Shown here: piece by piece, positions 23,239 to 27,906 of the stretch
Layout: each line of letters opens with the position of its first letter
Numbering within the stretch: position 1 is the first letter of the stretch
DNA from: Burkholderiaceae bacterium
GTDB lineage: Bacteria; Pseudomonadota; Gammaproteobacteria; Burkholderiales; Burkholderiaceae_E
Assembly (NCBI GenBank): GCA_900299025.1
Contig: OMIE01000064.1
Coordinates: 1 to 32,923 of the forward strand
DNA length: 32,923 nt
Direction of reading: 5' to 3'
Notes under the pieces: generated by a model
What the model saw: the letters and a program-made list of their open reading frames with translations, nothing else
Database searches by the model: none
What the model was told of the DNA's origin: nothing
Translations under genes and position numbers: made by a program

Positions 23239-24951
23239 ATGTTGGATTATTTGATTCGCGGTGGAAGCTTGGTCGATGGTTCCGGTGCTACGCGCCGCAC
23301 GGCTGACCTTGGTATCAAAGACGGCAGAATTGTTGCCATCGGTAAGTTAAACGAGGGAGCTCGTCGTACGATTAATGCCGATGGCTTGATTGTTTCACCT
23401 GGCTTTGTCGACGGACACACGCACATGGATGCGCAGGTGATGTGGGATCCGCTTGGCAGTTGCTCTTGCTTTCACGGGGTGACCTCGGTTGTCATGAGTA
23501 ATTGTGGATTTACGCTATCGCCTTGCAAAGCTCAGGATAGGGACTGGTATGCGAGAAGTCTGTCCTATGTAGAAGATATATCAGTTGACGCTATGCGCGA
23601 AGGAATCGACTGGACATGGGAGTCTTTTGCCGAGTACCAGGACGCGGTCAGACGCCGTCCCAAGGCACTTAATCACGCGATGTACATTGGACATTCTGCC
23701 GTGCGCATGTATGTGATGGGAGCGCGTGCACTCAGCAGCGAGGCAAGCGATGATGAAATCGCTCAGATGACAAGCCTCGTCATCGACGCGATACGCTCAG
23801 GAGCGGTCGGATTTTCAAGTTCGCGATCGCATACCCATCTGGCACCGGATGGTAATCCAGTGGCAAGTCGCATAGCGCATTGGCGGGAGATCGAGGCAAT
23901 CGTCGCGGCAATGGGGCGCTTAGGAAAAGGTATTTTTCAGATTGGTCCGGATATTTTGAATCGAAGTAGTAATCAAAAATTTCTAGAGCATATGAAGCAC
24001 TTTGCATTAAGCCACAAGGTGCCGGTGATGTTTGGTGTGATTTCAACGAAGCAGGGTGATGACCCCCCTCGATGGCAAGACCAGCTCGAAACCATTCAGG
24101 CTGTGAATCTCGCTGGTGGCCGGATGTTTGGTCAAGCATCGACACGCTCGATCAATGCAATTTTTTCGCTGAAGTCTTATCTGCCTTTCGATGTGCTTGA
24201 CGCTTGGAAACCGATACGCGCGCTCCCGCTGCCTATGCAGCTCGAAGCCTTGCGTCAACCAAGTCTGCGTCAAGAACTTATCGCTGCCGAGTCGCTCATG
24301 AAACCGCGCGATAACAAATTACAGGGCGGTGGCGCCGCCACGACCGATGCAAGAAAGCCCGATTACGACAATCTTTATGTGATGCGCGATGTCGACTGGC
24401 AGGATAAGACGGTTGGGGAGTTAGCGGTCGAATCGGGCAAGCATCCCGTTGACCTGATGATCGAACTTTGCTTGACAAACAACGATCAAATTTTTGTACA
24501 ACCGATTGTCAACGAATCGCGCGAAGACTTAAAAACACTTTTAGGTCATGAAGAGATTCTGGCAACCTTTTCTGATTCAGGCGCACATGTTGCTCAGGAA
24601 ATGGGATCTTCCTTGCAGACTCATTTTCTTCATTACTGGGTGAATCAGGCGAAGGCTTTCACCTTGGAGGCTGCGGTAAAGAAGCTCAGTCACGATAATG
24701 CTCGTGCATTTGGGCTTGGGCAGCGAGGGATGCTCAAAGAGGGATATTGGGCAGACGTTTTGTTATTTGAGGAGGATCGAATTCGTCCATGCGTTCCAGT
24801 CGTTGAGAACGATCTGCCCGCCGGAGCCCGGCGGCTCGTTCAGAAGGCTGAAGGCATCCGCCGCGTGTTTGTAAATGGCGCTGAGAGCTTTATCGATGGC
24901 GAAAGCACAGGACAATACGCAGGAGGCCTTCTTAGTTCGCAATCCAAATGA
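23239..24951 (+). CDS. D-aminoacylase/dihydroorotase-like amidohydrolase
   Basis: A 570-residue metal-dependent amidohydrolase of the N-acyl-D-amino-acid deacylase group. It opens with the family pattern MLDYLIRGGSLVDGSG, then SPGFVDGHTHMD (53-64, metal His60/His62), the metal-ligand cysteine in MSNCGFTLSPC (86-96; Cys89 fits the family position), GHSAVRMYVMG, RSHTHL and the acidic TFSDSGAH segment. The end (GMLKEGYWADVLLFEEDRIR) is the small beta domain. The ATG follows a run AAGGGGGG about nine bases away. It is larger than classical D-aminoacylases by about 80 residues. Deacylation of N-acyl amino acids is the family's reaction, but cyclic-amide hydrolases share this sequence type. Confidence 0.9.
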   Translation: MLDYLIRGGSLVDGSGATRRTADLGIKDGRIVAIGKLNEGARRTINADGLIVSPGFVDGHTHMDAQVMWDPLGSCSCFHGVTSVVMSNCGFTLSPCKAQDRDWYARSLSYVEDISVDAMREGIDWTWESFAEYQDAVRRRPKALNHAMYIGHSAVRMYVMGARALSSEASDDEIAQMTSLVIDAIRSGAVGFSSSRSHTHLAPDGNPVASRIAHWREIEAIVAAMGRLGKGIFQIGPDILNRSSNQKFLEHMKHFALSHKVPVMFGVISTKQGDDPPRWQDQLETIQAVNLAGGRMFGQASTRSINAIFSLKSYLPFDVLDAWKPIRALPLPMQLEALRQPSLRQELIAAESLMKPRDNKLQGGGAATTDARKPDYDNLYVMRDVDWQDKTVGELAVESGKHPVDLMIELCLTNNDQIFVQPIVNESREDLKTLLGHEEILATFSDSGAHVAQEMGSSLQTHFLHYWVNQAKAFTLEAAVKKLSHDNARAFGLGQRGMLKEGYWADVLLFEEDRIRPCVPVVENDLPAGARRLVQKAEGIRRVFVNGAESFIDGESTGQYAGGLLSSQSK

Positions 24952-25141
24952 TCATGATCCCACCAAGACAGATGATTAGTAGCTGCCCGAGTTGTTTGCG
25001 TAGGGCGAGGTCCTCCCTAATCACTTCAAGTTGATCGGGCCCAAGGCTTTGCTTGAGCTCGCTCGGGATACGCGAGTTTCCAGAGGCCCACAAGGCGAGT
25101 CCAAGGGAGAACACTAAGAGGATCGCAATGGCGTACAGCAT
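24932..25141 (-). CDS. Tiny two-segment membrane protein, unknown
   Basis: A 69-residue protein I do not recognise. It has two hydrophobic segments: LYAIAILLVFSLGLALWAS (2-20) and LLIICLGGIMIIWIAN (54-69), joined by a charged loop with LKQSLGPDQLEVIREDLALR. The ATG complements 25139-25141 with an AGGTAA-like site about eight bases upstream. Its 3' end overlaps the convergent amidohydrolase gene by 20 bases. The clean two-helix hairpin and amphipathic charged loop argue for a real gene, but its short length keeps confidence moderate. It is divergent from the FliG-like gene with a 64-base gap. Confidence 0.55.
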   Translation of the reverse strand: MLYAIAILLVFSLGLALWASGNSRIPSELKQSLGPDQLEVIREDLALRKQLGQLLIICLGGIMIIWIAN

Positions 25142-25205: not shown

Positions 25206-26237
25206 ATGTCCCCAATTCCCGACTGCAGCGTCAGCCCATTTCAACTCGATGGGGCGACCAAGGCTGCGCTGGTTTTGCTCGCTTTGGGGCCGGACACGGC
25301 TGCGGTGGTGTTGCGTTCACTGAGCGAGACAGCGATTAAGCGCCTCAGCACGCGCCTGATCGCTGTGCGACGGCTTGACCTAACGCAATGGATAGAGGTC
25401 TTGCGAGCGTTCAGGGAGGCAAGCAGCGATCAGCGTTTGCTCGGCATCGACACGGAACAGTTCATGGATCGTGCGCTGCACCAGGCTGATGTTGATGAAC
25501 GATCCTTGGGATTTCGCAATCGGTCCTTCGCGCTCATCGACCAAAACGCACTTGCTGCGATTGAGGCATTCGATTCGGATTTGCTACACGCGCGGATCAG
25601 TGACGAGCACCCTCAGATCATTGCGAGCCTGCTTGCCCTCATGGATGCCTCAGCGTCAGCAGCCTTAGCCGCTTGCTTTGAGGATGCGCTTCGTAATGAA
25701 TTGTTATTGCGGGTGGCTTTGCTCGATCATGTCCACCCGATGGCCATCGAGGACTTAAACGAGGCTTTGCGGGCAATCGCCCTTGATCCTATTGATAAAC
25801 AAAGCAGGCTTGGCGGCACCAAACATGCAGCCGCCTTGATCAACGCCTTTGATGAGCCGCTTGATCAAGAAGCGCTCGACAGGATGAGGGTATTTGAACC
25901 CGAGCTGGCGGATAGTGTTGAAGCTCAACGCTTCCTCTTCGAAGATCTCTTGGGCATTCCCAAACGTTCTTTGCAAACACTTATCATGACTGTAGGGCCT
26001 GAGGAGCTTGCATTAGCGATGCAGTCTTGCTCTGATACGCTTCGCCATTATTTATTGGCCGCAATGCCTGCCCCGCTTGCTGAAGCCGTTCGTGACGCCA
26101 TGCAGATCGTAAAACAAAATAGCACGAGCGAATCGCAGGCCGCGCAACGACGTATGCTCGCTCGCGGTCGAAGTCTTCACCAAGAAGGTCGCATACAACT
26201 TAAAGTGATCCCTTCGCATCGCGAAGAAGACGTTTAA
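25206..26237 (+). CDS. Stand-alone divergent FliG-like protein
   Basis: A 343-residue homologue of the flagellar motor switch protein FliG. The N domain holds TKAALVLLALGPDTAAVVLRS (split around residue 18-38). The middle domain has the FliG signature EHPQIIASLLALM (134-146), then GGTKHAAALINAF (203-215). The C domain has RFLFEDLLGIPKRSLQ (242-257) and ends in SLHQEGRIQL. Length matches FliG (about 330). The charged torque-helix positions appear mostly lost: by eye alignment, E. coli K264, R281 and D289 become Gln273, Pro290 and Ala298, and only D288 is kept (Asp297). No other flagellar gene is in the window. The start is the ATG at 25206; a TTG at 25191 is an alternative. The role is unknown. 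Confidence 0.78.
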   Translation: MSPIPDCSVSPFQLDGATKAALVLLALGPDTAAVVLRSLSETAIKRLSTRLIAVRRLDLTQWIEVLRAFREASSDQRLLGIDTEQFMDRALHQADVDERSLGFRNRSFALIDQNALAAIEAFDSDLLHARISDEHPQIIASLLALMDASASAALAACFEDALRNELLLRVALLDHVHPMAIEDLNEALRAIALDPIDKQSRLGGTKHAAALINAFDEPLDQEALDRMRVFEPELADSVEAQRFLFEDLLGIPKRSLQTLIMTVGPEELALAMQSCSDTLRHYLLAAMPAPLAEAVRDAMQIVKQNSTSESQAAQRRMLARGRSLHQEGRIQLKVIPSHREEDV

Positions 26238-27855
26238 GTACCTTGCCCAGGGCATTCCGTGGAAATTCCTTTCGAAACTCGACTCCAACCAATTGTTGTG
26301 GCTTAGCAAGACGTGCATTAGCCCATTGTCTTATCGCTTCTGCATCGACAGATTCACCTTCGCGTGGAATAACTAAAGCAAACGCTGCTTCGCCCCAGCG
26401 CGCGTGTTCAACACCGATGACGGCAACATCGAATACATGTGGGTGTTGAGCCACGATCGGTTCAATATCACTTGGGAAGACGTTAAAACCACCCGAAATA
26501 ATCATATCTTTCTTGCGATCGACAAGCCGAAGGAATCCCTCATCATCAACGACGCCGATATCACCCGAACGAATGAAGCTGCGACCGCGTGAGTCGCGCC
26601 AAATGAGCTTTTCGCTTGCCTCAGCTTGCTTGTGATAAGCCTGCATCATGCCGCCACCGTATCCAGCGATTTCTCCGATTTGGCCAGCAGGGAGTTCGTG
26701 CCCGTCCTCGGAGACAATCGCAAGCTCAAAGCCAATCACCGGTGTGCCAACCGTGTCAAACTTATCGTGCTGGCGCGCAGGCTTAAGCATGGTGGCAAAG
26801 CCCTCGGAGAAACCGTAAAGTTCTATTAACCGATTGCCAAGTTTCTCGATCACTCGTTGCTTAACATCCCGGCGCAAGGGCGATCCCGCGCAAAGCAGCA
26901 CTTCAACCGTATCGAAAGCTGCAGGATCGAACGCTGGATGCTCAAGCAGCATCAGGTATTGCGTTGGTACCATAAAGCTGTGGGTAATACGCTCCGATTT
27001 AACAATCGATTGAAAGGCTATGGGATCAAATTGCTGCATGGCAATTAGACTCGCGCCGCAAAATAACGCGGGCAGCATCATCAGCCATGTACCGTTTGAA
27101 TAGAGCGCCGTCGTTGTGAGTACCCGTGAAGCTTGAGAAAATCCCATCTCGAGGCTGTTTGACCAGGCCCAATGAAGTCTAGCGGCATGGCTTTGAACAA
27201 TGCCCTTTGGTAGGCCTGTCGTACCTGAGCTATAAATAATATTAAATGGATCACTGGCTTCATAGGTTCGTGTGAGCACCGGATCTTGGTGACCCTGGCT
27301 TAACCAGTCAGTCCATGCGATAAAGGGCTCATAGCAAGACTTGAGCGGATCAGAGGCTTGAACGCCGTTGAGGGTCTGAGTGCTCGCAGCGAAGTTATTG
27401 CCGGTGACGACAACCAAGAGCTCGTCCCGAAGCGCAGGGCAATGCAGACTCAGCTTGTTTTGAGCGGTTGTTGTGTCGTCGGCGTTTGAAGTACTAAGAA
27501 GCTTCTCAGCGTATTCTTGAGATACCATCAGTCCGACAGCATCGCTATCTCGAATTAGTCCTAAGCTTTGTTCTGCGGTCAGTAATCCAGACAATGGCAC
27601 CACGCATGCGCCGCTACTAACGATCCCGAAGATCGCCGTGAGTAGCTCAACGCGATTGTTCATCAGCACAGCAATCTGGCACCCGCGCCCGACGCCAAGT
27701 GCTTGCAATCGCCTTGCGACGCGATCGATCGATTGACCGAACTCGGCCCAAGTCAGACGCTGACTGCCACAGACGAGTGCCTCGTGTTGTGGCCGGTAGC
27801 GCGCATGAGAGCGCAATAAATCCGGAATGAACACCTGGGGCGAGTCGATGGGCAT
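26200..27855 (-). CDS. AMP-forming acyl-CoA ligase
   Basis: A 551-residue member of the adenylate-forming family, which activates a carboxylic acid with ATP and joins it to CoA. Motifs in order: the P-loop IIYSSGTTGLPKG (206-218), the ELYGFSEGFA adenine-binding stretch, SGDIG, the hinge RKKDMIISGGFNVFPSDIE and the catalytic lysine region ALGKVLKR near the end. Length and motifs suit fatty-acid or aromatic/alicyclic acid ligases. The ATG complements 27853-27855; a TTG four codons earlier is also possible. Its 3' end overlaps the convergent FliG-like gene by 38 bases. It is divergent from the lipoprotein-thiolase-P450 operon, with about 51 bases between, so a shared substrate pathway is plausible. 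Confidence 0.9.
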   Translation of the reverse strand: MPIDSPQVFIPDLLRSHARYRPQHEALVCGSQRLTWAEFGQSIDRVARRLQALGVGRGCQIAVLMNNRVELLTAIFGIVSSGACVVPLSGLLTAEQSLGLIRDSDAVGLMVSQEYAEKLLSTSNADDTTTAQNKLSLHCPALRDELLVVVTGNNFAASTQTLNGVQASDPLKSCYEPFIAWTDWLSQGHQDPVLTRTYEASDPFNIIYSSGTTGLPKGIVQSHAARLHWAWSNSLEMGFSQASRVLTTTALYSNGTWLMMLPALFCGASLIAMQQFDPIAFQSIVKSERITHSFMVPTQYLMLLEHPAFDPAAFDTVEVLLCAGSPLRRDVKQRVIEKLGNRLIELYGFSEGFATMLKPARQHDKFDTVGTPVIGFELAIVSEDGHELPAGQIGEIAGYGGGMMQAYHKQAEASEKLIWRDSRGRSFIRSGDIGVVDDEGFLRLVDRKKDMIISGGFNVFPSDIEPIVAQHPHVFDVAVIGVEHARWGEAAFALVIPREGESVDAEAIRQWANARLAKPQQLVGVEFRKEFPRNALGKVLKRLLRDAKGSL

Positions 27856-27906
27856 GGTCACTCTCAATGGAATCTGAGGCAGCGTAAGAGGCTAGAATCA
27901 TTACAT

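Follow-up and report, generated by a model that had tools for sequence, protein, structure and literature searches.

A gene that encodes an intact FliG-like protein, but stands by itself among metabolic genes and has lost most of the charges with which FliG meets the stator, raises the question of what its product can still do and why the gene persists. Such a gene lies in the window analyzed here, which comprises the 32,923 bp of contig C64 of a Burkholderiaceae bacterium (genome G000; assembly 2.97 Mb, 97.73% complete). The gene, designated P0001 together with its product of 343 amino acids, occupies positions 25206–26237 of the plus strand, with an amidohydrolase gene upstream (23239–24951, plus strand) and a convergent AMP-binding (acyl-CoA synthetase-like) gene downstream (26200–27867, minus strand), whose 3′ end overlaps that of P0001 by 38 bases. 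Upstream of P0001, and divergent from it, lies a 69-aa open reading frame with a hydrophobic stretch (24932–25141, minus strand), the DNA of which aligns in the relative G001 and, nearly whole, in the relative G002. The stand-alone position among metabolic genes noted in a preliminary description of this locus was thus borne out, and P0001 differs from known fliG genes in having no flagellar genes beside it.

The frame of P0001 runs through its 343 codons without an internal stop, and its product exceeds the Pfam cut-offs for all three FliG domains. These are FliG_N (PF14842; residues 13–94, positions 25242–25487; 53.1 bits), which in FliG binds FliF; FliG_M (PF14841; residues 129–189, positions 25590–25772; 57.8 bits), which in FliG binds FliM and here includes the EHPQ motif; and the stator-facing FliG_C (residues 228–332, positions 25887–26201; 78.9 bits), all on the plus strand. 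The linker GG was located by alignment at residues 203–204 (25812–25817, plus strand), and the FLFEDL motif was also found. The score of P0001 against the NCBIfam FliG equivalog TIGR00207 was 163.7 bits, which is below the cut-off of 226.7. Its relatives among solved structures amounted to 14 distinct sequences, all of them FliGs or a FliF-FliG fusion, the best being Salmonella FliG (8umd_B, E 1e-34).

A structural model of P0001, built from 26 sequences and of modest confidence (pLDDT 68.2, pTM 0.48), agreed with this assignment, since all 13 matches at E under 0.001 were flagellar C-ring or FliG structures. The predicted C-domain superposed on 1qc7_B with a TM-score of 0.91 by target length (rmsd 1.0 over 86 columns, E 0.04) and the predicted M-domain on 4fq0_C with a TM-score of 0.82 (rmsd 2.0, E 0.7), whereas the fit of the N-domain to 5tdy_D was loose (TM-score 0.66, rmsd 13.3). 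Superposition of the whole chain on full-length FliGs was poor, with TM-scores of 0.26–0.36 by query length. The structure prediction that had been proposed as a check thus returned a FliG fold, in which the C- and M-domains superpose well and the N-domain loosely.

In E. coli FliG, R281, D288, and D289 are ranked as residues of primary importance, and K264 and R297 as secondary (PMC6079164). Alignment of P0001 to Salmonella FliG (8umd_B) revealed, in E. coli numbering, the replacements K264→Q273, R281→P290, D289→A298, and R297→S306, with D288 (D297 in P0001) as the sole stator charge kept, which is exactly what had been read by eye and excludes the possibility that the torque charges of P0001 are conserved. 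In 48 other FliGs aligned from the family and the order, R281 and D289 were invariant (48/48 each), K264 was lysine in 47 and arginine in one, position 288 was Asp or Glu in 48/48, and position 297 was Arg or Lys in 48/48. At the five positions, the nine canonical FliGs aligned from the window's own genus all read K, R, E, D, and K. The broken P0001 ortholog of G002 has the same five residues as P0001, and the loss of the charges is therefore old.

The loss did not emerge as a specific signature, however. P0001 keeps only 46 of the 85 positions conserved in the family at the 85% level; retention was 12/28 in the torque half versus 34/57 elsewhere (Fisher p = 0.17), and at the overall retention rate of P0001 the binomial probability that no more than one of five charges survives is 0.14, so that the charge loss is not significant beyond general divergence. 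The charges were not removed selectively from an otherwise preserved protein. Given the residues at these positions, P0001 should not bear normal torque.

P0001 is not the only FliG of its genome, as G000 holds three FliG_C matches, located on contigs C31 (P0002), C40 (P0003), and C64 (P0001). Both P0002 (287.4 bits) and P0003 (285.4 bits) pass the TIGR00207 cut-off, carry K, R, E, D, and K at the five stator positions, and are 93% identical to each other. Their genes likewise have metabolic or regulatory neighbors, that on C31 being flanked by LysR and MaoC genes and that on C40 by genes for TauD and a Cys/Met PLP enzyme. No match to FliF, FliM, the FliM/N C-domain, FlhA, the MotB plug, or the rod domain was found in G000 at E 0.001, and a search with the FliF protein of a relative returned nothing there. 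The genome therefore does not present a complete flagellar operon served by P0001 as its only FliG, an arrangement that would have spoken against the preliminary description; it has two other FliGs, and six flagellar families are unmatched. It is unlikely that flagellar genes of G000 were missed as too divergent, because the same type of search finds FliF, FliM, and rod genes in close relatives. A search of PLSDB, which covers known (sequenced) plasmids, with the FliF of one relative (L071) gave 116 records, none of which reached 60% identity or covered 80% of the query.

In a survey of 101 genomes, in which g1 denotes the window's own genus and g11 a second genus, FliG was found in 73 genomes and FliM in 66. 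FliG without FliM occurred in eight (G000, G002, G003, G013, G023, G031, G046, and G047), six of which belong to g1 and g11; G046 and G047 have a single FliG copy each and are 79% and 83% complete. More than one FliG_C match was found in G000, G001, G002, G003, G013, and G031, the last with three matches located at the ends of contigs and possibly representing two genes, and outside g1 and g11 only in G086 and G094. The FliG counts of G001 are unreliable, because this bin, 62% complete, is a mixture of contigs apparently from several related species (L067, L068, L069, and L070), whose dS to G000 or G002 ranges from about 0.02 through 0.23 to saturation.

In the relatives, pieces of the flagellar gene set were found in G001, G003, and G023. 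The gene order on contig C427 of G001 (L071) is fliF-fliH-fliI-fliJ-fliK-fliL-fliM, and that on contig C122 of G003 (L181) is fliF-fliH-fliI-fliJ; fliG is absent from both, the spacing from fliF to fliH being 61 bases in L071 (5611–5671) and 71 bases in L181 (5325–5395). The position between fliF and fliH is the one that fliG generally takes, and Polynucleobacter (L093) has it there, in the order fliF-fliG-fliH-fliI-fliJ-fliK-fliL-fliM-fliN. The Pfam scores for FliH of L071 and for FliJ in both L071 and L093 are under the cut-offs, and these proteins were named by position and resemblance, as were FliH and FliJ of L181, which have no Pfam match. FliG of Polynucleobacter is 62% (L093) and 64% (L122) identical to P0002. 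In G023, pieces of FliF, FlhA, and rod genes are present, and the contig with FliF stops short of where fliG would lie. The comparison of these orders suggests that fliG apparently moved out of the operon and is now multiplied and very conserved at unrelated loci. In G001 and G003, the genes for FliF, FliI, and FliH are intact, with protein sequences far more conserved than their saturated synonymous sites, and the operon lacking fliG is thus presumably in use. G003, a 93% complete bin, holds fliF to fliJ, yet shows no match to FliM, FlhA, the MotB plug, or the rod; expected flagellar genes can therefore go missing from such a bin, which makes their absence from the bin of G000 a weak indication that the cell lacks them.

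The canonical copies of the genus hardly change at the protein level, in dN/dS comparisons confined to unsaturated pairs. Their dN/dS was 0.000–0.005 in five pairs within the genus, as compared with 0.008 and 0.018 in g11 and 0.033 in Polynucleobacter. The copies on C40 of G000 and C74 of G002 differ by 47 synonymous changes and by no amino acid over 365 codons, those on C69 and C188 by 50 synonymous changes and one amino acid over 366 codons, and those on C40 and C244 by 183 synonymous changes and two amino acids over 365 codons. The neighbors of such near-unchanging copies (L005, 13286–14383; L073, 8207–9304; L069, 370–1482) change more; TauD beside the C40/C244 pair differs at 27 of 275 residues. 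Paralogs of a single genome have diverged further than these pairs, those on C31 and C40 being 93% identical. The FliG gene of L069 lies between a TauD gene, as on C40, and an AcrB-type gene, as on C188 and C69, an arrangement that suggests one ancestral FliG locus, later split in two.

These results bear on the possibility that species without a flagellum kept several FliG copies, P0001 among them, for another job. FliGs are present in G000 (97.7% complete) and G013 (99%), neither of which matched any of the flagellar families for which it was searched; the identical proteins of C40 and C74 come from two genomes without detected flagellar genes; and the scanned FliG neighbors are metabolic or transport genes, apart from two without a family. 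Mild support comes from g11, whose five FliG copies extending into the torque region (L077, 9458–10552; L078, 5188–6288; L079, 2477–3580; L081; L082) have K, R, E, A or S, and K there, so that D289 is gone from 5/5. As D289 is a primary residue in E. coli (PMC6079164), the motor of g11, if any, would itself be unusual. However, the canonical copies of the window's genus keep the five charges or like ones in 9/9, which is hard to account for without a stator; the flagellar gene pieces of G001, G003, and G023 are intact and conserved; and the gaps of G003 show that such genes can escape a bin. We regard a non-flagellar job of this kind as quite unlikely. In a wider form, FliG of both g1 and g11 would have been uncoupled from the flagellum to become a core, multi-copy, near-unchanging protein that species without a flagellum keep for a non-flagellar job, a set of which P0001 would be the torque-free member, and this too seems unlikely to us. 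A PUCC-family gene (L077, 10562–11923, minus strand) adjoins one fliG of g11 and hints that g11 may be phototrophic.

To place P0001 among these proteins, a FliG tree was computed, from which rows of fewer than 300 residues were dropped except for the G001 piece, and from which the partial copies of G031 and the G002 remnant were left out. A branch with support of 100/100 separates the long-type FliGs of g1, g11, Polynucleobacter, and family f17 from 51 other FliGs, which take in the rest of the window's own family. The FliGs of g1 and g11 thus group with Polynucleobacter and f17, apart from the rest of their own family, and genes of the flagellum may have passed from one lineage to another. 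The point at which P0001 attaches lies between the g1 group (81/73) and the remaining FliGs, and its branch is very long, at about 4.2 changes per column (3.7 plus 0.54 on either side of the drawn root). This placement makes its split old, and it carries a long-branch warning as well as a flag from the tree program for a composition unlike the rest. The relatives that score best against P0001 are long-type FliGs from f17, from its own genus, and from Polynucleobacter-like genomes. Its bit scores reach 203 against f17 FliGs and 199 against the copies of its own genus, and the slightly better score against f17 makes an origin by transfer possible.

P0001-type genes, 82–100% identical, occur in three of the four genomes of the genus and were not found in the fourth, G003 (93% complete). 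In the other 70 genomes of the family, the best match to P0001 is 37% identical. In an order sample of 399 genomes, the only P0001-type gene at E 1e-30 among the matches listed, which include none from G001–G003, is that of its own genome, and the best others listed are long-type FliGs of f17 and f31 (34–37%). The G002 ortholog, which the AMP-binding gene adjoins as in the window, has two in-frame stops as well as a frameshift of one base and is thus a pseudogene. Being broken in a sister species, P0001 is dispensable.

The dN/dS of P0001 was 0.155 between G000 and G001 (213 codons, Fisher p = 7e-10), 0.188 between G000 and G002 (340 codons, p = 1.5e-14), and 0.11 between G001 and G002 (210 codons, p = 2e-12). 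The selection test that had been proposed thus indicated purifying selection (0.11–0.19 in three pairs, well below 1), in agreement with the earlier argument from the intact frame against simple decay. The AMP-binding neighbor gene has a dN/dS of 0.136 between G000 and G002; P0001 therefore evolves like an ordinary metabolic gene and not like a FliG. Judged from sequence comparison, P0001 is still under constraint in two lineages, whereas another has a disrupted copy and the search of one more did not find it.

It may accordingly be asked whether P0001 is a decaying duplicate, that is, a redundant fliG freed by the canonical copies, which lost its motor surface, is bound to vanish, and in G000 is merely not yet broken. 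The stops and frameshift of the G002 copy, the failure to find the gene in G003, a dN/dS that greatly exceeds the values of the canonical copies, and a charge loss that matches general divergence all accord with such a fate. However, dN/dS is well below 1 with tiny p-values in 3/3 pairs, even those with the broken G002 copy, and the frame has outlasted about 4.2 changes per column, which a neutral frame would not. In simulations restricted to substitutions, only 2.8% of 2,000 neutral frames survived at 0.12 substitutions per site. Decay is, on balance, a possible explanation that we do not favor.

The locus also provides a reason to consider whether P0001 is mobile or horizontally exchanged within the genus instead of being a stable chromosomal paralog. 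When contig C155 of G001 (L070) was compared with the window, identity jumped at the start codon of P0001 from about 70% upstream to about 93%, which may reflect either a chimeric contig or a replacement of the gene. As G001 is a mixed bin, its P0001 ortholog may lie on a chimeric contig, and an assembly chimera would explain the jump. Moreover, the P0001 locus is syntenic in G000, G001, and G002, and the single match to P0001 among viral contigs is a distant FliG of 29% identity. We consider exchange of this kind highly improbable.

Taken together, the best reading of P0001 is an old, torque-incompetent, dispensable FliG paralog, which would be either an auxiliary subunit of a rotor or scaffold or a gene on its way out; as between the "repurposed scaffold" and the dying duplicate of the preliminary description, it may be either. 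We lean slightly toward an account in which a dispersed fliG ancestry is combined with P0001 as an extra non-torque FliG. The departure of fliG from the operon and its multiplication would date from the ancestor of the genus. The conserved canonical copies would build the rotor, while P0001 would have diverged into a FliG that takes no part in torque, acting perhaps as a minority subunit of the C-ring that, with FliF and FliM, tunes or limits torque, or else as a scaffold, and it would now be disappearing from parts of the genus. A point against this account is that, with six flagellar families unmatched in G000, a rotor for P0001 is only presumed in this cell. Further points against it are the mixed composition of G001, the relative that has the longer operon without fliG, the lack of significance of the charge loss, the bit scores that slightly favor f17, and the modest confidence of the structural model. 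The earlier interpretation holds as regards the stand-alone gene, the lost charges, and the rejection of simple neutral decay; what it lacked were the metabolic sites of the other two fliG genes, the operon without fliG in two relatives, and the pseudogene of G002.

With the FliGs of E. coli, Salmonella, and Thermotoga, P0001 shares the three domains, the EHPQ motif, the GG linker, and the fold of the C-domain, but it differs from them in having four of the five stator charges replaced and in falling short of the equivalog cut-off. It lies on the same side of the 100/100 branch as the long-type FliGs of Polynucleobacter and f17 (L093, L122, L085, and L189–L191), although long-type FliG of Polynucleobacter is encoded inside fliF-fliG-fliH and not dispersed. 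As far as titles and the beginnings of abstracts disclose, no dispersed or torque-dead FliG has been recognized in the literature outside spirochetes. A genus that combines an operon lacking fliG with unlinked, near-unchanging copies and a torque-dead copy would allow the mixing of FliG isoforms in rotors to be tested, as well as the way in which FliG dosage is set once the gene leaves the operon. A parallel is Borrelia burgdorferi, in which, of FliG1 and FliG2, one is described in a review (PMC7225975) as required for the synthesis of flagella and the other as required for torque and unevenly distributed within the cell. Both systems have multiple FliGs in a single genome, with a division of roles in Borrelia; in the genus studied here, by contrast, the torque residues are missing from one copy, the ortholog of which is broken in a sister species, and the canonical copies have themselves been duplicated outside the operon.
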